From Rhodospirillaceae bacterium (lineage in GTDB: Bacteria > Pseudomonadota > Alphaproteobacteria > Rhodospirillales > Rhodospirillaceae): 64,000 bases of DNA. The notes under the pieces were generated by a model that ran no database searches, was not told the origin of the DNA, and saw only the letters and a program-made list of their open reading frames with translations. Of this stretch, positions 13,493 through 42,466 are shown piece after piece. The translations under genes were made by a program, and so were the position numbers. The stretch's first letter is position 1, and each line of letters opens with the position of its first letter. The stretch spans positions 1 to 64,000 of the forward strand of contig NSIP01000010.1 in NCBI GenBank assembly GCA_002737725.1. Reading direction: 5' to 3'.

Positions 13493-13846
13493 TTAGGGCG
13501 CCAGGTCGACGTTCATGCCGTCGCCTTGTTGTTGAAGCGCGTCTAGCTCGTCTTGCACGCTTTTCAGAACACGCGCGATGTAGGCGGCGCGCCGTTCGGT
13601 GCGGATTTTATTGACCTCTTCGCTGAGCTCATAATTCTCAACGTCACCGATTTTGAACACGCCCTTTTTCTCGGCGAGGCGCTCGACGGTATCCAGACGG
13701 TCACGCATCACCGACAACTCACCCATCAACGTTAGCACCATCGACAGAAGTTTGTCTGTCGTGCTGTCAAAATAGATCGGCTTTTTGCCCTTAGCCGTGC
13801 GGGGCAGCTTTACGGGTTTCTTGTCGTCTTTTTTTTCTGCGGCCAT
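13493..13846 (-). CDS. small paralogous protein, copy 1 (unknown family)
   Basis: I do not recognise the function. The 117-residue product has a lysine-rich N-terminus (about 1-22), the segment KGKKPIYFDS (about 19-28), a helical stretch MGELSVMRDRLDTVERL (about 41-57), and a C-terminal amphipathic helix RRAAYIARVLKSVQDELDAL. It has no signal peptide or membrane segment. The same order of elements (KGxxPxFFDD, then EVxVxxDRLDTVERL, then AYxxRVxR) occurs in the products at 15178-15570 and 41887-42249. It follows the methyltransferase by 38 bases on the same strand. A helical oligomer or coiled-coil adaptor is the best structural guess. Confidence 0.8.
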   Translation of the reverse strand: MAAEKKDDKKPVKLPRTAKGKKPIYFDSTTDKLLSMVLTLMGELSVMRDRLDTVERLAEKKGVFKIGDVENYELSEEVNKIRTERRAAYIARVLKSVQDELDALQQQGDGMNVDLAP

Positions 13847-13884
13847 GTGCGTCGGTCCTTATATCTTGGTGGCTACTTTTAGCG

Positions 13885-15015
13885 CTATTTCACAGCCACA
13901 TAAACCGGGAAGGTGAAGTTTTCATTGGAATAGGGGGTCTGACCATCTTCCCACGAACTTGCGACCTGGTGAATTTTGAACTTCGCCGGATCAAAGCCCG
14001 CTTTCTTCGCGACTTCGGCAAGGTCAAGCTCGCGAAGCTGGCCATAGAAGTGTTCGTTATTATTGTAAATTTCCCATTCCCACAAAAAACCTTCGAGCGG
14101 GTTTTGCCCAAACACTTGCGGCAAGTCGAGGTGCATCATCACCCCACCTGGTTTCAACAGGCGATAGCATTCGTTGAAAATGCTTTGAATCGCTTGCACC
14201 GATGTTTCGTGAAGTAGGATGTGCGATGTCACGATGTCGAAACTGGCGTCTGGGAAATTGGTTTTCTCGGCGTTCTGCTGGCTGAAGTTCACATTGCCGC
14301 CCACTGCTTTGGCGCGTGCATGGCCGTAGCGCAGGCAGGGCGCACCCACGTCAATAGCGTGAAACTCTGTGCCGGTTTCTTTTGTCGACCAATATGTGAC
14401 CGAGCCCCCGATGGTGCAGCCCATATCGAGCGCGCGCTCGACTTTTTTGTCGGGAAACTGCTTGCGGAAGAACTCGCGCAAGATTCGGCCCAAACCATCG
14501 TTGGCCGGCCCTAAGCCGCCCATGGAATAGATGTACGTGCCGCGATCATAAACCGCGCCCGCCGCCAAATCGTCGGTGATTGAGTCCGTATGATAAGCGC
14601 CGGGTTGCAAGTGAATGTCAGCGGCGTCGTGATATTTCGGAACTATGACGTTGGGGTTCAACGTCAACGACCCCTTGCCATTGAGGTCTTTTGCTTTTTC
14701 CAACAGGTCAGGAAGTTGCCGCTCAACGCTGTCGATGACCGAATCCCAAATCATCTCTTGGCTGTTGCGCTGCATGGCGCTCCACAGCTGATAATAGGAA
14801 TCCTTGGTCATAACCTTGCGCACCTCGTGCCGGTCTTTGGGCTCGCGGCCTTGGGCTTTGATGAACGAGGGCAGCACGCGGTTGAAGTACGCTGGAAAAG
14901 CCCCTGGAAAAACCTTCGCAGCTAAGTGCACCCGGAAATCGTTGACGAAATCTTGGCGCGAGGCCTCGTCGTGATTGGGCTTGGCGAACATCGTGTGCAT
15001 GTTTTGCGGTATCAT
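13885..15015 (-). CDS. class I SAM-dependent methyltransferase with N-terminal helical extension
   Basis: A 376-residue protein. Residues 1 to about 185 form an uncharacterised, probably helical region; the C-terminal half is a Rossmann methyltransferase: ALDMGCTIGGSVTYW (about 195-209) as motif I, FHAIDVGAPCLRYG as motif II, FDIVTSHILLHE and CYRLLKPGGVMMHLDLP after it. Motif I is MGCTIGG, not the common GCGTG. TAGGAG precedes the start. It lies between two copies of an unknown small-protein family on the same strand, and a flavoprotein monooxygenase follows upstream, so a joint role in modifying a ring or lipid-like substrate is possible but unproven. Confidence 0.8.
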   Translation of the reverse strand: MIPQNMHTMFAKPNHDEASRQDFVNDFRVHLAAKVFPGAFPAYFNRVLPSFIKAQGREPKDRHEVRKVMTKDSYYQLWSAMQRNSQEMIWDSVIDSVERQLPDLLEKAKDLNGKGSLTLNPNVIVPKYHDAADIHLQPGAYHTDSITDDLAAGAVYDRGTYIYSMGGLGPANDGLGRILREFFRKQFPDKKVERALDMGCTIGGSVTYWSTKETGTEFHAIDVGAPCLRYGHARAKAVGGNVNFSQQNAEKTNFPDASFDIVTSHILLHETSVQAIQSIFNECYRLLKPGGVMMHLDLPQVFGQNPLEGFLWEWEIYNNNEHFYGQLRELDLAEVAKKAGFDPAKFKIHQVASSWEDGQTPYSNENFTFPVYVAVK

Positions 15016-15177
15016 GGCGATCTCCTAGAATTAGGCTCAAGGACTCCAGCGCTCGGATACATAGAGAGTTCAGTTCATTCATTCTACTTGGTCATCGGCC
15101 CCAACCCCTGTGTGGTCTGTTGGGGTTGCGCGCTGTGGTAACCGATCCTCTGTTGGTCAGATATGATCGAGGTCAGA

Positions 15178-15570
15178 TTATCTACGACGCTTTTTAGCTT
15201 TTGGTTTGGTCTTTGGTTTTGCTTTCGCTTTGCCAGCCGCTTTTGGTGCTTTGCTGACCACTGTTTTAGCGGGCTTTGTCGGCGCGGTGTTCTGATGCAT
15301 GCGAAACACCCGTTTCAGGTAGGCATCCCGGCGCGCCATGCGCTCGGCTTCCACCGCATCGGGCGCGCGATAAGCCTCGATATCGGCCCGCGAGATGGTG
15401 CCTTTGGTATCGAGTAAGCGTTCAACCGTGTCGAGGCGGTCATAAACTACCGAGACCTCAGCCGATAACTCGATGATAAAGGTCATCATCTGGTCGATGG
15501 CGGGGTCGTCAAAGAATTGCGGGCGCTTGCCCTTGGATACGCGGGGCAGGCGAACTTGGGTCTCGGGCAT
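15178..15570 (-). CDS. small paralogous protein, copy 2, with basic tail
   Basis: A 130-residue protein of unknown function. KGKRPQFFDDPAIDQMM (about 13-29), ELSAEVSVVYDRLDTVERLL (about 34-53) and RRDAYLKRVFRMH (about 80-92) match copies 1 and 3. From about residue 95 the chain changes into a lysine/alanine/proline tail (KAPKAAGKAKAKPK, ending KAKKRRR) that resembles histone H1-like tails and could bind nucleic acid or anionic polymers. AAAAGGA lies upstream of the start. It is 162 bases before the methyltransferase start. The tail is absent from the other two copies. Confidence 0.8.
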   Translation of the reverse strand: MPETQVRLPRVSKGKRPQFFDDPAIDQMMTFIIELSAEVSVVYDRLDTVERLLDTKGTISRADIEAYRAPDAVEAERMARRDAYLKRVFRMHQNTAPTKPAKTVVSKAPKAAGKAKAKPKTKPKAKKRRR

Positions 15571-15649: not shown

Positions 15650-16822
15650 TCAAACGGCAACCGTGGCCGGGTTATAATTGAATAGCCCCAAGAATTCTTC
15701 GTTCTTATGCTCTGTCTTGGTGTATGTGTCGGCTTTGCCGCCTTGCAGGCGTGCTTGGGCCTCGCGGGACGCCAGTTGTATAAAGGTCGCTCGCTCACGC
15801 CGCGCGCCCTCGTAGCGCTTGAGGGCCTCGTCAATCGATTGCGCGGCCTGAAATGCGCGCGCCAGCACGACGGCGTCCTCAATCCCACTGGCCGCCCCCA
15901 TGCCCAAGAAGGGCAGCATCGGGTGCGCGGCGTCGCCGAGTAGCGTCACGCGGCCTTTGGTCCACTGTGGCAAGGGGTCGCGGTCATGGATCGCCCATTT
16001 GAAACACAACTCTGGTGGCGTCGCGGCAAGGAAGGCGTGAAACGACTCATGCCAGTCGGCGAATTCGGCCAACAGTTCCGAGACTTCCGAGCGTACCGCC
16101 CAGCTTTCCACCTCCCAGCCTGTTTTCTCGGCGAAGGCCACGTAATTGAGCATCGTGCCGTTGCGAACCAGGTAACGCGCCATGCTGTGTTTCACTCCCA
16201 CGGCGGCGGCCGACGGAGGGTTAAGCTTGAACCCTTTGGGCAATCGCTCGACGGGCACAAGCCCGCGCCATGCGATGTTGCCCGTAAAGCGCGGCGCTAC
16301 CTTGCCCCACAATATATCGCGCACCGCCGATTTAATGCCGTCGCAACCAATCACCACATCGGCTGTAATGGCGACGCCATTGGCAAACGTCACATCGACG
16401 GCGTTCGCGTTTTGGCTCAATCCCACGAAAGCATGATGGAGTTTGATGGCGTCGGGATCATTCGCGCGCACCGCATCCGCCAGCATGGTGTGCAAATCAG
16501 CGCGGTGAATTTGATAATAATCCGCCCCGTATTTTTTCTTGGGTAAATCACCCCGCTCGAGGTCAACGAGGACTTGGCCCGTGCGATAGTGCAACACGGC
16601 TTGGCGCTCGGGGCGCGAGGCGACGCGGGCCAAGGTTGGGCCAAGACCGACCGATTCCAGCGCATGGGTGGCGTTGGGGCTCAGCGTTAAACCTGCGCCG
16701 ACTTCGGCCAATTGCGGCGCCTGTTCGTAGACAGCAACTTTAAACCCGCGGGCCTGCAACGCCAACGCAGCTGTCAAGCCGCCGATCCCAGCGCCGATTA
16801 AAACAATTTTGACATCACGCAT
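15650..16822 (-). CDS. FAD-dependent aromatic monooxygenase (salicylate hydroxylase-like)
   Basis: A class A flavoprotein hydroxylase. VLIGAGIGGLTAALALQARG (from residue 6) is the FAD-binding GxGxxG fold, ADVVIGCDGIKSAVR (about 155-169) is the DG motif for FAD/NAD(P)H, and VTLLGDAAHPMLPFLGMGA (about 285-303) is the GD motif. From the ATG at 16822 it has 390 residues, the usual length. A GTG 45 bases upstream in frame is possible but adds an atypical extension. Substrates of relatives include salicylate and 3-hydroxybenzoate; the actual ring here is unknown. It is transcribed with the small-protein/methyltransferase genes downstream. Confidence 0.85.
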   Translation of the reverse strand: MRDVKIVLIGAGIGGLTAALALQARGFKVAVYEQAPQLAEVGAGLTLSPNATHALESVGLGPTLARVASRPERQAVLHYRTGQVLVDLERGDLPKKKYGADYYQIHRADLHTMLADAVRANDPDAIKLHHAFVGLSQNANAVDVTFANGVAITADVVIGCDGIKSAVRDILWGKVAPRFTGNIAWRGLVPVERLPKGFKLNPPSAAAVGVKHSMARYLVRNGTMLNYVAFAEKTGWEVESWAVRSEVSELLAEFADWHESFHAFLAATPPELCFKWAIHDRDPLPQWTKGRVTLLGDAAHPMLPFLGMGAASGIEDAVVLARAFQAAQSIDEALKRYEGARRERATFIQLASREAQARLQGGKADTYTKTEHKNEEFLGLFNYNPATVAV

Positions 16823-16981
16823 CAGTTTGCGAAACCCCAGTTTCAATTCTTCAGGCAGTGCCCCCACACCGCATCCGAAGATGATTTAAACCAGCACATA
16901 GTGACGCTTGACGACAACGCCAAGGGCGGGCGCAAACCAATGGGTGAACAGCCGTGTTTGGCCGCGGTAAAGGTGGCGAAC

Positions 16982-17623
16982 CTAGTTCACGCGCCGCAAA
17001 TTGCGCAGATAAGCTATGACTTCGTCCTTGCTTTTGACCTCGGCATACTTCGCCTGCAGGTCAAAAAGGTTGGCATCGTGCGGGGCTTGATGTCGATCTC
17101 CGACCGCTTCGCGGATAACAATGGGTATAAATCCGCTTTGGCAGCTATCAAGGGCCGAGGCTCGAACGCAGCCCGAGGTACTCCAACCGGCGTGCAAAAC
17201 TGTATCGATGCCTGCCGCTGTCAGCGTCGAGGCCAGATTGGTACCGAAATAGGCGCTGGCATATTGCTTGGTGATCACAACTTCATTCGGTAAAGGCTCA
17301 AGGCCTGCAACAAACTCACCGAAGGGGCTGCCGCGCTCGAAGTTTTTAAGCGCAGGCACTTTGCGAAAAAAGATGCCACCGTCTGCCCCACCCGGCGTGA
17401 ACTCGACGCGCGTATGCACAATCATGATGCCGGCCTTGCGCGCTTCGGCCAGAACCTCTTTGGCCGCTTCAGCCGACGCCTCCACACCCGCATACAGCCC
17501 GCACGATTTGTCGATGTAGGCGCGCGCAAAATCGATGTGTAACAGACAGGGAGTTTTACCGAAATCCAAGCGCCCGCCAAACCCGGCCTTGCCGTAATCT
17601 TGATTCAAGGCTTTATCGCTCAT
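16982..17623 (-). CDS. isochorismatase-like cysteine hydrolase (N-carbamoylsarcosine amidase type)
   Basis: A 213-residue cysteine hydrolase. The triad is visible as Asp in LHIDFARAY (about 29-37), Lys in ITKQYASAYFGT (about 119-130) and Cys in AGWSTSGCVRAS (about 145-156). The TSGCVRA text is typical of the N-carbamoylsarcosine amidohydrolase branch rather than true isochorismatases. The start at 17623 follows GGGAGA; the open frame extends upstream but that part has no family similarity. It is in the same strand run as the FAD monooxygenase and a PAS protein. A second enzyme of this type occurs at 28867-29517. Confidence 0.86.
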   Translation of the reverse strand: MSDKALNQDYGKAGFGGRLDFGKTPCLLHIDFARAYIDKSCGLYAGVEASAEAAKEVLAEARKAGIMIVHTRVEFTPGGADGGIFFRKVPALKNFERGSPFGEFVAGLEPLPNEVVITKQYASAYFGTNLASTLTAAGIDTVLHAGWSTSGCVRASALDSCQSGFIPIVIREAVGDRHQAPHDANLFDLQAKYAEVKSKDEVIAYLRNLRRVN

Positions 17624-17688
17624 GGCTGATCTCCCGATGATCTCACCTCGGTTTTCGGCTAGCCACAGGCCAGAGTCAAGAAACGGTC

Positions 17689-18219
17689 TTAGGCGGTGCT
17701 CGGAAAGCCCGCACCAATATCGATCCATTCGGATGAGATAATTTCGCGCACAACAGACATGGAATTTCCTGCGGCAATCGATTCGCGAGACTGCGTGAAA
17801 GCCGCCAAGCAGCCCTGTCCGCTTTTGCAAAGCACGGGCAGGGTGACGGTACTGGCGGGGACGACCAGACCCGAGGTGGTCTTGACCAACCGCTCGGTCA
17901 TTTGGCCGCAGGGCCTTTTCACCATCGTCACGCAGGCTTGGCCCACTTTTTTCCGAGATTCAGGCGCGTAGATGTCTAGCGCATTCGTTTTGGTTAATTC
18001 ACGCCCCGTGAGTTGCACCAATCCTGTTCCCATGAGACGGATGCGCACATCGTCGATGGATATGACATCGAGCAGGACAACAAGTGGCTGAGTCTCAAGG
18101 GTGGGGGGATCGAGGAATTCTGAAAGGTTGGGAACCAACCCTTTTTTAATGAGAGCCAATGAGAGATAGAATTCTGGATTGCGACGGAAGGACTCATTGC
18201 GCTGCTCGACCTTAAACAT
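17689..18219 (-). CDS. PAS-domain (PAS_5-like) protein
   Basis: A 176-residue protein consisting mainly of a PAS-like fold: PLVVLLDVISIDDVRIRLMGTGLVQLTGRELT (about 45-76, described here by its ends) followed by TNALDIYAPE matches the PAS_5 pattern common in alphaproteobacteria. There is no kinase, GGDEF or DNA-binding domain attached. It may sense a small ligand or act as a regulatory partner; function is unknown. It heads the minus-strand run leading to the isochorismatase-like, FAD monooxygenase and small-protein genes. A degenerate relative is present at 30262-30672. Confidence 0.7.
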   Translation of the reverse strand: MFKVEQRNESFRRNPEFYLSLALIKKGLVPNLSEFLDPPTLETQPLVVLLDVISIDDVRIRLMGTGLVQLTGRELTKTNALDIYAPESRKKVGQACVTMVKRPCGQMTERLVKTTSGLVVPASTVTLPVLCKSGQGCLAAFTQSRESIAAGNSMSVVREIISSEWIDIGAGFPSTA

Positions 18220-18292
18220 TCTGAAGGGCCGTGCGCTGAACCTGCGGCGGCGGAACCTTAAGGAACCGATAGAGACTGCTTCGAGATAAAAG

Positions 18293-18323
18293 AAAAGGCC
18301 TGGTTAATAAAACCAGGCCTTTT
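18293..18323 (-). terminator. rho-independent terminator, probably bidirectional
   Basis: AAAAGGCCTGGTT (18293-18305) and AACCAGGCCTTTT (18311-18323) form a perfect 13-pair stem around a five-base loop. On the minus strand the stem is followed by a T-rich stretch. It lies 24 bases after the stop of the CoA-transferase gene and separates it from the PAS gene downstream on the same strand. Confidence 0.9.
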
Positions 18324-18346
18324 CACGATCACATGTAGAAACGCGA

Positions 18347-19546
18347 TTAGATAATCCCGCGCTCCTGGTACTCTTTCATGGTTTTTGAATCCATGCCGAG
18401 GATGCCGCCAAAAATCTCTTCGTTGTGCTCGCCAAGGTCAGGCCCAGTCCAACGCACCTTGCCCGGGGTTGCCGACAACTTGGGGAAGGTGTTTTGCATC
18501 TTCAGTTTACCAAGTGTTTTATCAGCCACTTCAACGATTGCCTCTCGCGCCTTGAAGTGCGCATCAGCCAACATTTCGGGTGCGCGGTAGATCAAGCCCG
18601 AAGGCACGCTGGCCTTGTCCATCAGACCTTCAAGTTCTTTGACGGTTTTGGTTTTGGTCCAAGCCGCAATCACATCATCGAGTTCTTTTTGGCGTTGGCC
18701 GCGTGCGGCGTGGGTTGCATACCTCGCATCGGTCCCTAACTCAGGCTGGCCCATGGCCTCAGCGAGGCGACGAAACACGGTGTCTTGATTTGCAGCGATC
18801 AGGAAGTTGCCATCTTTAGCTGGATACACGTTCGAGGGTGCGACGTTGGGCAAGATCGAGCCCGTGCGTTCGCGGATGAAACCTACTTTGTCGTACTCGC
18901 TGATCAGCGATTCCATCAGTTGCAAAACGGATTCATAAATTGCCGAATCTACAACCTGCCCGCGGCCCGTCAGATGCCGGTGATGCAGCGCCATCAAAGC
19001 ACCCATACACGCATATGTAGCAGCCGTTGTGTCGCCCAGCGAAATGCCAACACGGCTGGGTGGTGTCGAAGGATCACCCACGACGTAGCGCAATCCGCCC
19101 ATCGCCTCTCCCACGGCCGCGTAACCGGCCTTATGCGAGTAAGGGCCTGTCTGTCCGTAACCCGAGACGCGTATCATAATGATGCCCGGATTAATTTTGG
19201 CCAGTTCCTCGTAGCCGAGGTTCCATTTCTCCATGGTCGTCGGCTTGAAGTTCTCCAGCAGGAAGTCGGACTTCTTCACCAATTGCTTGATGATCTCTTG
19301 GCCCTCAGGCACGCGGGCATTGAGTGTGATGGACTTCTTGTTGCGCGCCACGATGGGCCACCACAACGATTTCCCCTCTGATTTCTCGCGACCCCATTCG
19401 CGCAAAGGGTCGCCGACCTTGGGCTGTTCAATTTTGATGACCTCGGCACCGAAGTCCGCCATCAACTGACCGCAGAACGGTCCGGCCAATAACTGGCCCA
19501 TTTCGATCAAGCGCAAGCCCGTCAACGGGCCGTTTTCTCCAGCCAT
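18347..19546 (-). CDS. CaiB/BaiF family III CoA-transferase
   Basis: A 399-residue family III CoA-transferase, moving CoA between carboxylic acids in the cytoplasm. LAGPFCGQLMADFGAEVIKIE (from about 20, given by its ends) is the conserved N-terminal block; SLGDTTAATYACMGAL (about 169-184) includes Asp172, the residue that forms the acyl-aspartyl intermediate in family members; LTGRGQVVDSAIYE follows. GGGAGAG precedes the start. It is divergent from an HMG-CoA lyase gene 241 bases away, so it may activate a branched dicarboxylate that the lyase then splits. The substrate is not determinable from sequence. Confidence 0.9.
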   Translation of the reverse strand: MAGENGPLTGLRLIEMGQLLAGPFCGQLMADFGAEVIKIEQPKVGDPLREWGREKSEGKSLWWPIVARNKKSITLNARVPEGQEIIKQLVKKSDFLLENFKPTTMEKWNLGYEELAKINPGIIMIRVSGYGQTGPYSHKAGYAAVGEAMGGLRYVVGDPSTPPSRVGISLGDTTAATYACMGALMALHHRHLTGRGQVVDSAIYESVLQLMESLISEYDKVGFIRERTGSILPNVAPSNVYPAKDGNFLIAANQDTVFRRLAEAMGQPELGTDARYATHAARGQRQKELDDVIAAWTKTKTVKELEGLMDKASVPSGLIYRAPEMLADAHFKAREAIVEVADKTLGKLKMQNTFPKLSATPGKVRWTGPDLGEHNEEIFGGILGMDSKTMKEYQERGII

Positions 19547-19787
19547 ATCACTCTCCCTGTCTGCCCGAGTCCTCTTGCCGGGGCGCTTTGCCCCGCAACA
19601 AGTCCACCCTATATAAGCCCCTGATAAAGGCCAGCTTCGCCTCGGCCTATAGCGGGGCCGAAGTGCCCTGGCAAGCCGATGAAGATGATTTGATGTCTAG
19701 ATGGGCAGGTCTACAATTCCACTCTACAGTCTGGTCTGCGACGATCACATCCACAGGCCAGTTTTGAGCAAGAATGGGAACGCGATC

Positions 19788-20699
19788 ATGATCAAGAAAG
19801 TAACACTCGTTGAAGTGGGGCCCCGCGATGGTCTGCAAAGCGAACCCAAGATTATGCCCACCGAGGAAAAGGTCGAGTTTATTAAGCGCGCCATAGATGC
19901 TGGGATCACGCGCATTGAGGTCGCTAGTTTCGTCAATCCCAAGCGCGTGCCCCAGATGGCCGATGCCGAAGCTGTGTTGGCTCAAGTGCCGCGCGATGGT
20001 CGTGCCAGCTACATTGGCTTGATCCTCAACATGAAGGGCTTTGAACGCGCGCGCGATGCCAAGGTCGATGAGATGGGCTACGCAGTGGTCGCCACCGATA
20101 CCTTCGCTATGAAAAACCAGGGCATGACTTCAGCCGAGACCGTGACCGCCTGGCAAGAGGTCGGTCGCGTGGCCAAAAGTGAAGGCTTTAAAACATCGGT
20201 GACAATTGGCGCTTCGTTTGGCTGCCCCTTCGAAGGTGAAGTGCCCATCCAGCGTGTGGTTGATATCGCCAAACGTTGCGCCGAGGTAAACCCCAATGAA
20301 GTCGCATTGGCCGATACCATTGGCTGCGCTGATCCCGTACGCGTGACCGAACTGATCACCCGTGTGAAAGCAGCTATTCCCGGTGTTCCAATCCGTGTTC
20401 ACTTGCACAATACCCGCAACACGGGCCTCGCCAATGCCTATGCTGCTGTGATGGCAGGCGTAGATTTCCTGGATGCCTCGACGGGTGGCATCGGCGGTTG
20501 TCCCTTTGCACCACGTGCAACCGGCAATATCCCCTTGGAAGATTTGATTTACATGCTGAACCGGATGGGCGTGGAGACGGGTGTGGATATCAACAAAGTC
20601 ATCGCCACCGCACAATGGGTCGAAGAGCGACTCGGCAAGCCGATCCCGGCCATGTTAGGCCGGGCGGGGGTATTCCCATCTGTGGCGAAGGCGGCATAA
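19788..20699 (+). CDS. hydroxymethylglutaryl-CoA lyase
   Basis: A 303-residue DRE-TIM lyase that splits 3-hydroxy-3-methylglutaryl-CoA to acetoacetate and acetyl-CoA. VEVGPRDGLQ (residues 7-16) supplies the catalytic Arg and metal-binding Asp, HLHNTRNTGLAN (about 206-217) the metal His and Asn ligands, and GGIGGCPFAPRATGN (about 233-247) the active-site Cys loop. The ATG at 19788 is chosen because the family begins there and GGGAA precedes it; the longer frame upstream has no similarity. It could serve leucine or a related branched-acid breakdown; related enzymes also use citramalyl-type substrates. Confidence 0.92.
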   Translation: MIKKVTLVEVGPRDGLQSEPKIMPTEEKVEFIKRAIDAGITRIEVASFVNPKRVPQMADAEAVLAQVPRDGRASYIGLILNMKGFERARDAKVDEMGYAVVATDTFAMKNQGMTSAETVTAWQEVGRVAKSEGFKTSVTIGASFGCPFEGEVPIQRVVDIAKRCAEVNPNEVALADTIGCADPVRVTELITRVKAAIPGVPIRVHLHNTRNTGLANAYAAVMAGVDFLDASTGGIGGCPFAPRATGNIPLEDLIYMLNRMGVETGVDINKVIATAQWVEERLGKPIPAMLGRAGVFPSVAKAA

Positions 20700-20928
20700 G
20701 AAAAGCCATTAGCGACCAGAAGTGCTGGCAAGGCCATAATAATTAAGCTACCTGGACGGCGCTTAGGGATGGGGCGGTCGATCACTGCATTTCTGATTCG
20801 CCTTTACCGAACTGTTTGACTAGGTTTGCGGCGACTGGTGCGGCGAGGGCGGGCCACCCGCTTAAACGCTTCACCGCAATGCGGCGTAAGCCCATTTCAT
20901 AAAATGCATAGCGAGGACGCGCGAAGCC

Positions 20929-23145
20929 ATGACGTATCGTTTGGGATGTGACGTTGGAGGAACTTTTACGGACCTCCTTTTGATTAACGAAGCCACGGGA
21001 GAAACCTATCGCGCCAAAACCCCCTCAACGCCGCAAGATCAATCGATCGGTGTCATGACCGGGATCGAGCGCATTTGCAAAGATGCGGGCATTACGCCAG
21101 CGGAAATTAGCGAATTCATGCACGGCACGACGGTCGCCACCAACGCCGTGCTGGAAGGCAAAGGCGCTGTCGTCGGCTTGATTGTGACGGATGGCTATAA
21201 ACAAGTGCTGCAAATTGCGCGCTCGTTTGTGCCCGGCGGTCTGGCGGGCTGGATCATCTGGAACAAACCACTTCCGCTGGCCTTGCTGGAAAACACCTGC
21301 GAAGTCAAAGAACGCATTGGCGCGCGCGGCGACGTGGTTCGACCCGTCAATGAAGAGTCGGTGCGCGAGGCCGTTCGCAAGCTGAAGGCAAACAAGGTCC
21401 AAGCCATCACCGTGTCGTTGATGAACTCTTTTGCCAACGGCGATCACGAAAAGAAAATTCGCGACATCATCAAGCAAGAGTTCCCCGAAGTGCCGGTGAG
21501 CTTGAGCCACGAAGTGCTGCCCGAAATGTATGAGTACGAGCGCACCCTCACGGCGGTTGCGAACTCTTACGTTCGCCCGACGGTTAGCCGCTATCTCAAA
21601 AATCTTGAAACTACATTTGCCAGCCGCAACATGAAGGCGAAGTGCAAAGTGTTGCGCTCTGACGGCGGCCTGATGGCCTTCGGAAATGCTGCCGACAAGC
21701 CTGTCGCCCTGATGATGTCTGGCCCTGCCGGTGGCGTGGCCGGTGCGTTATGGGTGTCGCGTCAATCGGGTTTCAAAAATCTGCTGACCTTCGACATGGG
21801 CGGAACGTCAACCGACGTCGCGCTGATCGAAAACGGCGAACCGCAGTTGCGTCGTGAAACCAAAGTCGGTGATGTGACGGTGCGTGCGTCCTCGTTAGAC
21901 GTTCGTACAGTTGGTGCGGGCGGTGGGTCCATCGCGCGCGTTCCTGAGCTGACGGGCGCCTTGCGTGTCGGCCCCGAAAGCGCTGGTGCCGTGCCAGGCC
22001 CCGCTTGTTATGGCAAAGGCGGAACTGAACCCGCCGTGACCGATGCCAACGTCGTGCTGGGTCACTTGCCACCGTCATTGATCGGCGGCGAAATGAAACT
22101 TGATGTGGCGGCCTCGAAGGCCGCGTGCAAAAAAGTCGGCGATGCGCTGAAGATCTCGGTCGAAACTGCGGCCGAAGGTATTGTGAAGATCGTCAACGAA
22201 AATATGTTCGGCGCGCTGCGCCTGGTGTCGATTGAACAAGGCTATGATCCGCGCGATTTCGCCCTGGTGGCCTTCGGGGGCGCAGGCCCCTTGCATGCCA
22301 ACGCGCTCGGCAAATTGTCGGGTTCATGGCCGGTCATCATTCCGCCCGGCCCCGGCGTGTTGTGCGCTTATGGTGATGCCACCACGCGCGCACGTAACGA
22401 AGCCTCACAAACCTTCGTGCGCCGTTACTCAGAAACGTCCAACAAAGACGTGACGGCCATCCTCAAGTCTCTGAGCAAACAAGCACAAGACAGTTTGATC
22501 AAAGAAGGCATCCCGGTCAAAGAACAGACCGTCATCTGGGAAGTTGACTTGCGTTACACCGGCCAAGGCTTCTCGGTGCCTATCGCTTGCAAGCCCGAAG
22601 GGTTTGAGAAAAACGGCCTGGCGCAAGCCGGTAAGGATTTCGACACCTTCCACACCCGTCAGTTCACCTTCGCGCTCGACGCCGAACATGAAATTGTCAA
22701 CTTGCGTGCGGTCGTTGTCGGCGAATACCCGAACGTCAAAGCCATTCGCGTTGGCAAAGGCGGCACCGATCCATCCAAGGCCGTGGTCAATGCCAACCAC
22801 GAGTTCTGGGACGAAGGCAAAAAGTACAAAGCCAAAATCTATGATCGTGCAAAATTAAAGGCTGGAAACATCGTGCAAGGCCCAGCGATTGTCACCGAGT
22901 TTGACTCGACCACCGTCATCTTGGCCGACTGCATGGGCACGATTGATCACGTCGGCTGCATCTTAATTACGCCCAAGGGCATGAAGCCCAAGGCGGGGAT
23001 GTCGGCGCCACCTGCTGGCGGTAAAGCGAAGGCCAAAGCGAAGCCAGCAGCCAAAGCTAAGGCGAAAGCCAAGCCGGCTGCTAAAGCCAAGGCGAAAGCG
23101 AAGCCAGTAGCCAAAGCCAAAGCTAAATCAAAGAAAAAGCGTTAA
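20929..23145 (+). CDS. hyuA: hydantoinase/oxoprolinase subunit A with Lys/Ala-rich tail
   Basis: The 738-residue ATP-dependent subunit of the hydantoinase/5-oxoprolinase/acetone carboxylase superfamily. GCDVGGTFTDLLLI near the start and TFDMGGTSTDVALI (about 285-298) are the phosphate-binding loops of the ASKHA fold; HGTTVATNAVLE and GAGGGSIARV are family blocks. After about residue 692 the sequence becomes an irregular repeat built from AKAKAKP and PAAKAKA units, ending KSKKKR. This tail is not part of the family. HyuB starts 23 bases downstream. Substrate may be a hydantoin, N-methylhydantoin or 5-oxoproline; sequence alone does not decide. Confidence 0.9.
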   Translation: MTYRLGCDVGGTFTDLLLINEATGETYRAKTPSTPQDQSIGVMTGIERICKDAGITPAEISEFMHGTTVATNAVLEGKGAVVGLIVTDGYKQVLQIARSFVPGGLAGWIIWNKPLPLALLENTCEVKERIGARGDVVRPVNEESVREAVRKLKANKVQAITVSLMNSFANGDHEKKIRDIIKQEFPEVPVSLSHEVLPEMYEYERTLTAVANSYVRPTVSRYLKNLETTFASRNMKAKCKVLRSDGGLMAFGNAADKPVALMMSGPAGGVAGALWVSRQSGFKNLLTFDMGGTSTDVALIENGEPQLRRETKVGDVTVRASSLDVRTVGAGGGSIARVPELTGALRVGPESAGAVPGPACYGKGGTEPAVTDANVVLGHLPPSLIGGEMKLDVAASKAACKKVGDALKISVETAAEGIVKIVNENMFGALRLVSIEQGYDPRDFALVAFGGAGPLHANALGKLSGSWPVIIPPGPGVLCAYGDATTRARNEASQTFVRRYSETSNKDVTAILKSLSKQAQDSLIKEGIPVKEQTVIWEVDLRYTGQGFSVPIACKPEGFEKNGLAQAGKDFDTFHTRQFTFALDAEHEIVNLRAVVVGEYPNVKAIRVGKGGTDPSKAVVNANHEFWDEGKKYKAKIYDRAKLKAGNIVQGPAIVTEFDSTTVILADCMGTIDHVGCILITPKGMKPKAGMSAPPAGGKAKAKAKPAAKAKAKAKPAAKAKAKAKPVAKAKAKSKKKR

Positions 23146-23168
23146 CGGTTGAGCAGGAGGGTTGAATC

Positions 23169-25064
23169 ATGACGAGCAAAGCGCAAATCATCGAAACCAA
23201 TAAGAAGCCTTTTAAAAAGGTCACTATTGATCCCATTACGCTCGACATCATCGAAAGCGCGTTGCGTAACGCGCGCTTCGAGATGGACGCCACGGTGTTC
23301 CGCACCGCAATGTCCTCGGGCATTCGCGAACAGCACGACGCCTTCCCGCTGATTGCCAACAAAGACGGCAAAATGGTGGTGGGTCAGTTCGGCTCATTCA
23401 TCGGCGGGTTCCTGAATAACTACGACGGCACCATCGAAGAAGGCGATGTCTTCTTCACCAACGATCCGTACAAAACCGAAGGCGCCATCAGCCACGCCAA
23501 CGATTGGCTGATCTTGCTGCCGATTTTCTTCAGCGGCCGTTTGGTCGGCTGGTCATGCCACTTCGGTCATATGACCGACAACGGCGGCAAAGTGCCAGGC
23601 TCGATGCCTACCGATGCCACCACGATTTTCGAAGAAGGTCTCGTGACGCCGCCCACCAAGCTTTACAAAAAAGGCGTGCTGCAATCGACATTGCTGGAAG
23701 TCATGCTGAACCAGGTCCGCTTGCCGACCTGGAACCGCTCGGACCTCAATGCCGTGTTGGCTGCCTGCCGCGTTGCTGAAAAGCGCGTGAAGGAAATGTG
23801 CGTTCGTTTCGGCGATGACGTGTTTGTGTCGGCCTGCCAAGCCGCCCTTGATCGGAACAAGCGCGCCATGTCGATCTTGATCGACAAGAACGTCAGCGAA
23901 GCTCCGGTGTCATTCGAAGATTACGTCGATGACGACGGCCGCGGTTACGGCCCCTACAAAATCAAGTGCACCATGTGGCGCGAAGGCAGCAAGGTGATCC
24001 TCGATTGGAAAGGCACCGATCCACAGGCCATCGGCTCCATCAACTTTTACCTCAACGAAAACATGCTCAAGATGTTCTGGGGCATCTACATGATCATGGT
24101 GTTCGACCCCGCCATTCTGTTCAACGACGGGTTCTATGACCTGGTGGATGTGCGCATCCCGCAAGGCACGTTGTTGAAGCCAAACTTCCCCGCCGCCTTG
24201 TCGTGCCGCACGCACGCTTTGGGCCGCATCTTCGACACGTTTGCTGCGCTGCTCGGTCAAAAAACACCTGACTTCCTGTGCGCCGCGGGATTCTCGTCCT
24301 CGCCGCACTTTATGTATTCGGGCACCAACTCGAAGGGTGAATGGTACCAGCTGTATCAAATCGGCTTCGGTGGCATCCCGGCCAAACCGTTTGGCGACGG
24401 CCCCGATGGTCACTCGATGTGGCCCAGCTTCACCAACGTGCCGCAAGAATACTTGGAAGCCTACTTCCCGCTGCGCATTGATCGTCATGAAACGACGCCC
24501 GATTCCGGTGGCGCAGGACGCTTCCGTGGTGGTAACGCGCTGCGCGTTGACTACTGCTTCTTGGAAGACGGCGAAATCTCCATCCATGACGACCGTTGGC
24601 TCACCTATCCGTGGGGTGTGAACGGTGGCACGCCGGGCAAGCGCTCGGAGAAGATTTTGTACCGCACCAATGGTTCGATTGAGTACCACCATTCCAAGTG
24701 CGACAACGTCAAAGTGAAGAAGGGCGATGTCTTGGCCTTCATCACCTGGGGTGGCGGCGGTTGGGGCAACCCGATCGAACGCGAAGCGACCTTGGTTGCC
24801 ACCGACGTCCGTCGTGGCTTGGTGACACCGGAAGGAGCTAAGCGCTACGGTGTTGTTGTCAATGCTGACGGCGTGATCAATGAGGAAGAGACTAGGAAAC
24901 TCCGCGCCGACATCAAATCCAAACAGCCTGCTAAAATGCCTGTGTTCGATTTGGGCCCACCGCTGGCGCAAACGTTGGCCAATTGCGAAAAAGAAACGCA
25001 TTTGCCAGCGCCACGTCCGCCAGTCTTCCGTCCAGATTTCCACGCGGCCAAAGCGGCAGAGTAA
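23169..25064 (+). CDS. hyuB: hydantoinase/oxoprolinase subunit B
   Basis: The 631-residue HyuB subunit, partner of HyuA in hydrolysing a cyclic amide with ATP. Recognisable blocks are ITLDIIESALRNARFEMD (about 19-36), GIREQHDAFPLI, FFTNDPYKTEGAISHANDW (about 97-115), HFGHMTDNGGKVPGS and the C-terminal glycine-rich SGGAGRFRGGNAL (about 444-456). GAGCAGGAGG precedes the start, the strongest ribosome site in this region. A terminator follows 23 bases after the stop, so hyuAB form a two-gene operon. No transporter is adjacent. Confidence 0.92.
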   Translation: MTSKAQIIETNKKPFKKVTIDPITLDIIESALRNARFEMDATVFRTAMSSGIREQHDAFPLIANKDGKMVVGQFGSFIGGFLNNYDGTIEEGDVFFTNDPYKTEGAISHANDWLILLPIFFSGRLVGWSCHFGHMTDNGGKVPGSMPTDATTIFEEGLVTPPTKLYKKGVLQSTLLEVMLNQVRLPTWNRSDLNAVLAACRVAEKRVKEMCVRFGDDVFVSACQAALDRNKRAMSILIDKNVSEAPVSFEDYVDDDGRGYGPYKIKCTMWREGSKVILDWKGTDPQAIGSINFYLNENMLKMFWGIYMIMVFDPAILFNDGFYDLVDVRIPQGTLLKPNFPAALSCRTHALGRIFDTFAALLGQKTPDFLCAAGFSSSPHFMYSGTNSKGEWYQLYQIGFGGIPAKPFGDGPDGHSMWPSFTNVPQEYLEAYFPLRIDRHETTPDSGGAGRFRGGNALRVDYCFLEDGEISIHDDRWLTYPWGVNGGTPGKRSEKILYRTNGSIEYHHSKCDNVKVKKGDVLAFITWGGGGWGNPIEREATLVATDVRRGLVTPEGAKRYGVVVNADGVINEEETRKLRADIKSKQPAKMPVFDLGPPLAQTLANCEKETHLPAPRPPVFRPDFHAAKAAE

Positions 25065-41886: not shown

Positions 41887-42249
41887 CTAACCGGCGAGAT
41901 TGCGATCTGCTAAATCTTTCGAACTGACATTCAAGCTCTCGTCTTCCAGGGCCTGTAATTCCTGACGAACGATGCGCAATATGCGCGCCACATAGGCCGC
42001 ATGCCACTCTTGACGTTGGCGTGCTGCATCGTCATCGGGCTTAAATGCGTCAATGCTGGCTTTCGTCATGGGCTGACCCGCTTCCATCAGCCGTTCGATG
42101 GTATCCATCCGCTCGCGCAACACTGCAACTTCACTGGCGACCGCCATGGTAATCGACAGGACCCGCTCGACGGCGGGATCGTCAAAGAAATAAGGGCGCT
42201 CACCTTTGGCTTTGCTATTGGCCAGCGCGTTCACATCGATCTTGCTCAT
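41887..42249 (-). CDS. small paralogous protein, copy 3 (unknown family)
   Basis: A 120-residue protein from ATG 42249 (GAAGAAG upstream; an in-frame TTG 15 bases earlier is less likely). KGERPYFFDDPAVERVL (about 15-31), ASEVAVLRERMDTIERLM (about 37-54), SIDAFKPDDDAARQRQE and AYVARILRIVRQELQAL (about 86-102) follow the same plan as the products at 13493-13846 and 15178-15570. It is uncharged at the C-terminus and has no basic tail. It stands alone between an esterase and a ferredoxin gene, 26 kb from the other copies. Function unknown. Confidence 0.8.
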   Translation of the reverse strand: MSKIDVNALANSKAKGERPYFFDDPAVERVLSITMAVASEVAVLRERMDTIERLMEAGQPMTKASIDAFKPDDDAARQRQEWHAAYVARILRIVRQELQALEDESLNVSSKDLADRNLAG

Positions 42250-42466
42250 GTCCGACTTCTTCAATAACGGGGCTCTAAACTCATATCATTGCGATGGCGG
42301 CCTGTCGTGACTTGGTGCCGTAGCATGATGGGCGTCCGCCTTGCGGACGAGCGCGGGCTCTGCTGCCGCTGCCTTTTGCCCAAAAAGGCCAAAGCCGCAA
42401 AATCCCTTGCTCGCTCGGACCGCCTGCGATACGAGCGGCGTAGGCTTCGTCAAACCCGGATTCCCC

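Follow-up and report, generated by a model that had tools for sequence, protein, structure and literature searches.

The 64,000-nucleotide stretch of DNA analysed here (positions 1 to 64,000 of contig NSIP01000010.1 from a Rhodospirillaceae bacterium, hereafter the window) carries a gene for a methyltransferase (MT) flanked by two genes for small proteins that resemble each other, A and B, and a third such gene, C, lies at a distance (Table 1). The locus raises the question of what these small proteins do and which enzyme they serve. The original prediction proposed a helical adaptor or oligomeric scaffold for the enzymes of the cluster. The idea of an adaptor fits our results, but the partner that recurs is one lineage of methyltransferases rather than cluster enzymes in general. 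We consider it probable (about 0.7) that A and its relatives serve a lineage of class I SAM methyltransferases, one with a helical N-terminal extension, as dedicated subunits that are not themselves catalytic.

Table 1. Features of the window and Tat-like MT paralogues at other loci (coordinates with the prefix L).
Feature	Position	Strand	Description
Small protein A	13493-13846	-	117 aa, 38 bp after MT; proposed MT subunit; homologous to B
Methyltransferase (MT)	13885-15015	-	class I SAM, 376 aa, helical N-terminal part without assignment; Methyltransf_25 E 5.5e-17, residues 196-291
Small protein B	15178-15570	-	130 aa with a tail rich in lysine; 162 bp before MT; partner uncertain
FAD-dependent monooxygenase	15650-16867	-	upstream of B, same direction; FAD_binding_3 E 2.8e-27; context, outside the pair
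Small protein C	41887-42264	-	TTG start, 125 aa; ATG alternative at 42249, 120 aa; copy without nearby MT
Tat-like MT paralogues	L047:8657-9853, L052:7118-8317, L054:5563-6756, L056:7228-9605, L058:5723-6937, L059:7190-8407		small gene mostly upstream

At the main site, transcription runs from the FAD monooxygenase (16867-15650) through B and MT (15015-13885) to A, and the successive genes are 79, 162 and 38 bp apart. The three homologous small ORFs that had been predicted were confirmed, all on the minus strand (C starting at 42249 or 42264), and the plus-strand readings of the same coordinates are interrupted by stops. The monooxygenase predicted upstream on the same strand was also found there; its nearest model was that of 3-hydroxybenzoate 6-monooxygenase, yet the score was under the cut-off of this model. 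The window MT matched Methyltransf_25 and Methyltransf_11 with 62.7 bits (cut-off 27) and 60.7 bits (cut-off 21.2), scores that assign it a class I SAM domain. The matches covered residues 196-293, and the Pfam search reported nothing for the first 170 residues, in line with the unassigned N-terminal half noted before for the methyltransferase between A and B. Judged by eye, isochorismatase-like, CaiB-like and hydantoinase A/B-like genes are found with the MT pair in the window (16982-25064) and again in Sphingobium chungbukense (L129:6673-11027), and annotated hydantoinase A/B genes are located near the MT-small pair of plasmid pJE1. Since genes of the hydantoinase A/B type occur near the pair in all three, a common catabolic pathway is possible.

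The likeness of the small proteins is due to homology and not to chance, as seen from a search of the whole genome with B, which returned A with an E-value of 2.1e-18 (43% identity) and C with 5.8e-16 (34%). The blocks originally described as KGxxPxFFDD, EVxV, DRLDTVERL and AYxxRVxR are present in that order, but are looser than written: KGKKPIYFDS, ELSV, DRLDTVERL and AYIARVLK in A, KGKRPQFFDDP, EVSV, DRLDTVERL and AYLKRVFR in B, and KGERPYFFDDP, EVAV, ERMDTIERL and AYVARILR in C. Four residues (D26, E38, R45 and E50 in B numbering) are nearly invariant in the family. A search of 19 small proteins against Pfam, NCBIfam and PHROGs gave isolated weak matches only, each to a single member (best E 0.0016), and no family passed its curated cut-off or recurred among the members. 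The nitrile hydratase alpha subunit was matched by one of the 19 in NCBIfam (E 0.0053) and was also the sole PDB profile match (E 0.23 over 23 residues). No family in Pfam or NCBIfam was thus matched convincingly, and by sequence A, B and C appear to belong to a family of small helical proteins that has not been described. In plasmid pJE1 the pair is annotated as a 'class I SAM-dependent methyltransferase' and a 'hypothetical protein'. No description of the MT-small pair was found in the open-licence literature on the surroundings of the family, pJE1, small subunits of methyltransferases or periplasmic methyltransferases, for the word combinations tried.

The three copies of the original prediction are real and belong to a larger family. 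In the genome of the window (G000), 18 copies were found with B as the query and 20 with a profile built from 19 copies, together with 30 MT paralogues (E <= 1e-20). Three relatives contained 32 MT and 20 small copies (G004), 44 and 28 (G005), and 71 and 38 (G008). In the last genome, of 3.5 Mb, several MTs stand in tandem runs, for example at C10:150836-157054. Within the taxonomic family of the window, the small family was detected in 19 of 73 genomes, G000 included, which represent 6 of 23 genera and hold 12 to 36 copies each; the other 54 genomes had none at the threshold used. Over this lineage as a whole, the number ranges from 12 to 38 per genome. In the class, at least 25 of the 385 genomes carry the family, and in the phylum at least 4 of 398 (G000 being counted in both), in searches that scored at most 11 candidates per genome and can therefore miss copies. 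Judged from these searches, the MT-small system has a sparse distribution and has expanded strongly in a single lineage. A contig binned as Klebsiella pneumoniae (L084) has an MT-small pair with 52% identity to the window MT; this assignment is probably a binning error.

The association of the two genes was then counted. In G000, at least 15 of the 20 small genes have a same-strand MT no more than 400 bp away, compared with a mean of 0.08 and a maximum of 3 in 20,000 trials of random placement; the corresponding numbers are at least 16 of 20 in G004, 19 of 28 in G005 and 23 of 38 in G008. The G000 figures rest on the best 25 of 30 MTs, and those of all four genomes are lower bounds. Among the matches listed, 5 of the 20 small copies in G000 have no intact MT near them, one being beside a remnant, and 11 of 25 MTs have no small gene nearby. 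At L051:7275-7535 of this genome, an MT remnant of 86 aa adjoins an intact small gene, a decaying pair.

Named genome contigs were scanned with an alignment of five MTs, and the best 78 loci were taken. They include Rhodospirillaceae bins, sphingomonads, Niveispirillum, Nitrospirillum, Caulobacter, Binatia, Gammaproteobacteria, Methylonatrum, a Laspinema cyanobacterium and an Acidimicrobiia bin, among others. A profile built from the G000 copies alone detected a small gene on the same strand, at most 78 bp away, at 61 of these loci from several phyla, and detected none at the remaining 17. In this group, contig ends truncate at least L082, L101 and L134, and in several further cases the MT is clearly solitary. 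Hence the small partner of the MT is not universal: MTs without a small gene exist. The reverse search, starting from the small family, found an MT beside it at 18 of 28 loci at class level (flanks of 1.5 kb; the other 10 had no MT within that distance) and at all four loci outside G000, from three genomes, at phylum level. Two sphingomonad plasmid loci retrieved with an MT query carry the small gene as well. Both gene orders are frequent in the four genomes (at least 35 small-first and 38 MT-first), so the linkage outlives rearrangement. Intergenic gaps in 71 pairs range from -191 to 180 bp, some of the negative values resulting from start codons set too far upstream, and 60 of the 71 are within 60 bp either way. 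In Antarctobacter, a protein of 76 aa that by eye retains only the central motif (ALAAEVSVLRDR) is encoded directly before the MT. On its plasmid pSMS3-3 (L250:3044-7996), a tight operon with overlapping starts and stops comprises two genes of the PLP-dependent decarboxylase family, the gene for this reduced form of the small protein, that for the MT and one for an alpha/beta hydrolase.

A part of the MT lineage carries a putative export signal. According to a simple home-made rule, 26 of 68 paired MTs in the four genomes begin with a twin-arginine signal followed by a hydrophobic stretch; the N-terminus of the window MT has no such signal. Gene order differs between the groups, 22 of the 26 Tat-like pairs being arranged small-MT and 35 of the 42 without a signal MT-small. 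In G000, the signal was present in 10 of the 25 distinct MT ORFs examined, and an eleventh (L151) shows it by eye at a later start. In the neighbourhood of the copies, 202 genes of at least 150 aa were predicted, and 19 of them agree with the rule: 7 of the 19 are MTs of this kind, and among the rest are, by eye, an amine oxidase as well as nitrilases and hydrolases. Should the signals be genuine, these MTs would act outside the cytoplasm, in surroundings for which no SAM supply is known to us. It is conceivable, though doubtful, that this branch is exported folded via Tat, with the signal-less small subunit riding along, and performs periplasmic SAM-type or other SAM-fold chemistry among Tat-exported catabolic enzymes.

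To compare the histories of the two proteins, distances among the small proteins were correlated with those among their MTs inside single genomes, where species history cannot confound the result. Mantel correlations were 0.776 in G000 (n = 14), 0.805 in G004 (n = 15), 0.842 in G005 (n = 17) and 0.889 in G008 (n = 22), with p = 0.0001 in each. They remained significant after the Tat-signal group was removed (p = 0.0036 in G000 and 0.0001 in the other three genomes). Inside this group alone, the correlation was 0.63 in G008 (n = 6, p = 0.02) and 0.34 in G000 (n = 5, p = 0.22, not significant), and G004 and G005 contained too few Tat-signal pairs for it to be calculated. As joint duplication alone could give such co-divergence, these values show a shared history, not contact.

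Contact was approached through a structural model of the pair from a close relative (L083), in which the MT is 89% identical to that of the window, the small protein is the 88% identical counterpart of A, and both genes are in one frame, 42 bp apart. The stop was read through, giving one chain of 504 residues, and the alignment consisted of 18 other read-through pairs, 42 MTs and 25 small proteins. AlphaFold2 returned a pLDDT of 89 and a pTM of 0.88; the linker region 380-396 was below 50 and disordered, and residues 411-490 of the small part were at 88-97. The helices of the small part span residues 415-448, 453-457, 463-480 and 482-493; the predicted fold is a long helix, a short helix and a long helix. 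By a hand estimate from the pTM formula, a randomly placed small part would give about 0.72; the value of 0.88 suggests, for the one pair modelled, a confident position of the small part on the MT. The same approach with B and the window MT, with a shallower alignment (16 MT-bearing rows) and 55 residues between the parts, gave a model that was not confident, with a pLDDT of 61 and a pTM of 0.58, parts of the MT itself being poor. The order of helices in the L083 model prompted the idea that the small protein is a duplicate of the N-terminal domain of the MT, which was rejected, as hhalign gave a probability below 1% in four comparisons. Foldseek and VIA-align, with rows spanning mainly model residues 44-378, matched the MT part to Rv2258c (5f8e_B; Z 16.5, rmsd 3.4, 218 residues) and DnrK (5eeh_C; Z 16.1, rmsd 3.4, 216 residues), with many others tied. 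Residues invariant in 15 MT paralogues of G000 include H135, P138 and G139 (HxxPG), which precede the SAM-binding fold, and H269-E270 within it.

Other explanations have to be weighed against this evidence. An oligomeric scaffold that gathers several enzymes of the cluster, the MT being one client among several, would agree with a helical protein and with copies that have no MT nearby, such as C, which is accompanied by what look like nitrilase-like, Rieske-type and transporter genes. However, the MT alone recurs. Among the 97 nearest other neighbours at 51 of the 78 loci, no Pfam family exceeds eight occurrences, a number reached by MFS_1 and Abhydrolase_6, and we regard the scaffold as quite unlikely. 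FAD_binding_4 (four) and Bac_luciferase (three) are rarer still, and of the two links by which the original prediction was to be judged, that to methyltransferases holds across phyla and that to oxygenases is unsupported. By eye, the surroundings of the pairs differ and comprise nitrilase-like, Rieske-type, hydantoinase-like, TonB-receptor and deacetylase-like genes. At L057:8464-11547, a tandem array of four paralogous genes, whose products have about 250 aa each and N-termini that look like signals, directly adjoins an MT-small pair on its upstream side, as read on the minus strand. It is also unlikely that the genes merely travel and duplicate as a cassette, their products making no contact and the small protein having a role of its own, for example in regulation. 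Joint duplication predicts co-divergence within a genome just as a complex does, and some copies of either gene are solitary, but the linkage persists through changes of order and over great evolutionary distance, and the predicted pair structure, with its pTM of 0.88, also argues against such independence.

A further alternative accepts the pair as real and assumes that its SAM-type fold now catalyses another reaction, or binds another ligand, in catabolic pathways. The surroundings do look catabolic, with hydantoinase, CoA-transferase and oxygenase genes; many paralogues with Tat-like signals would work where SAM supply is not known, and in some of them the first SAM motif is changed. The Foldseek matches include RdmB, a protein of this fold that is not a methyltransferase. 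On the other side, the motif glycine G199 and the acidic D222 are invariant in the 15 G000 paralogues, and all 61 MT-bearing rows of the alignment match both Methyltransf_25 and Methyltransf_11. A changed function is, in our opinion, rather unlikely.

The copies B and C fit the subunit reading less directly. Relatives have a B-type gene either behind a different MT-small pair (L074, where a gene that looks MmgE/PrpD-like lies in between) or at a distance of about 1.5 kb from the MT (L083), and B may serve an MT other than that of the window. The MT nearest to C, among the matches listed, is 26.9 kb away. Both copies may be orphans, may have partners in trans or may be something else; we provisionally count B as a family member that may go with a different MT, and C as an orphan.

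To our knowledge, proteins dedicated to the activation of methyltransferases are known best from translation-related methylation, with Trm112 as the example. According to a published account, Trm112 of eukaryotes and archaea is small and not itself catalytic; it binds class I methyltransferases, activates them, and has a zinc-knuckle with CX3-4C and CX2C cysteine motifs, not kept in metazoans (PMC5372719). The family described here would resemble it in outline, as a small non-catalytic partner of a class I methyltransferase, but is all helical in the model, and its copies usually lie beside their own MT, whereas Trm112 serves several methyltransferases. Identity with Trm112 was ruled out, since the zinc-knuckle cysteines are absent: A, B and C contain no cysteine, and neither do 69 of the 78 matched small-protein regions, the other 9 having some. 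The MbtH-like proteins of peptide synthetases are likewise small helpers encoded beside the enzyme they support, often in paralogous pairs, but their client enzyme differs. Rv2258c, DnrK and RdmB belong to the class I methyltransferases for small molecules that have a helical domain at the N-terminus, and they share the fold of the catalytic domain with the MT. They are known as single-gene enzymes, whereas the MT has its partner in a separate gene, shows 12-16% identity to Rv2258c and DnrK in those rows, and has an N-terminal part without a Pfam name.

From these results, a hypothesis regarding the function of the pair may be put forward. Taken together, the model, the linkage and the co-divergence point to a small protein that binds its own MT in a defined complex. 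By analogy with Trm112, its helices would pack on the MT, probably stabilise the enzyme, and complete or cover the substrate pocket. Whole pairs seem to have been duplicated together, and each catabolic cluster would have one of them, beside catabolic genes that differ from case to case; because the surroundings vary and no neighbour family is dominant, each pair probably handles its own small molecule, a different one of its pathway in each case. If this is true, the pairs constitute a two-subunit enzyme class, with one small partner per methyltransferase, in bacteria of several phyla. Many 'hypothetical proteins' would thereby acquire a role, and such MTs would be predicted to behave poorly when expressed alone. 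The Tat-like branch, in turn, poses the question of whether SAM-type chemistry takes place outside the cytoplasm.
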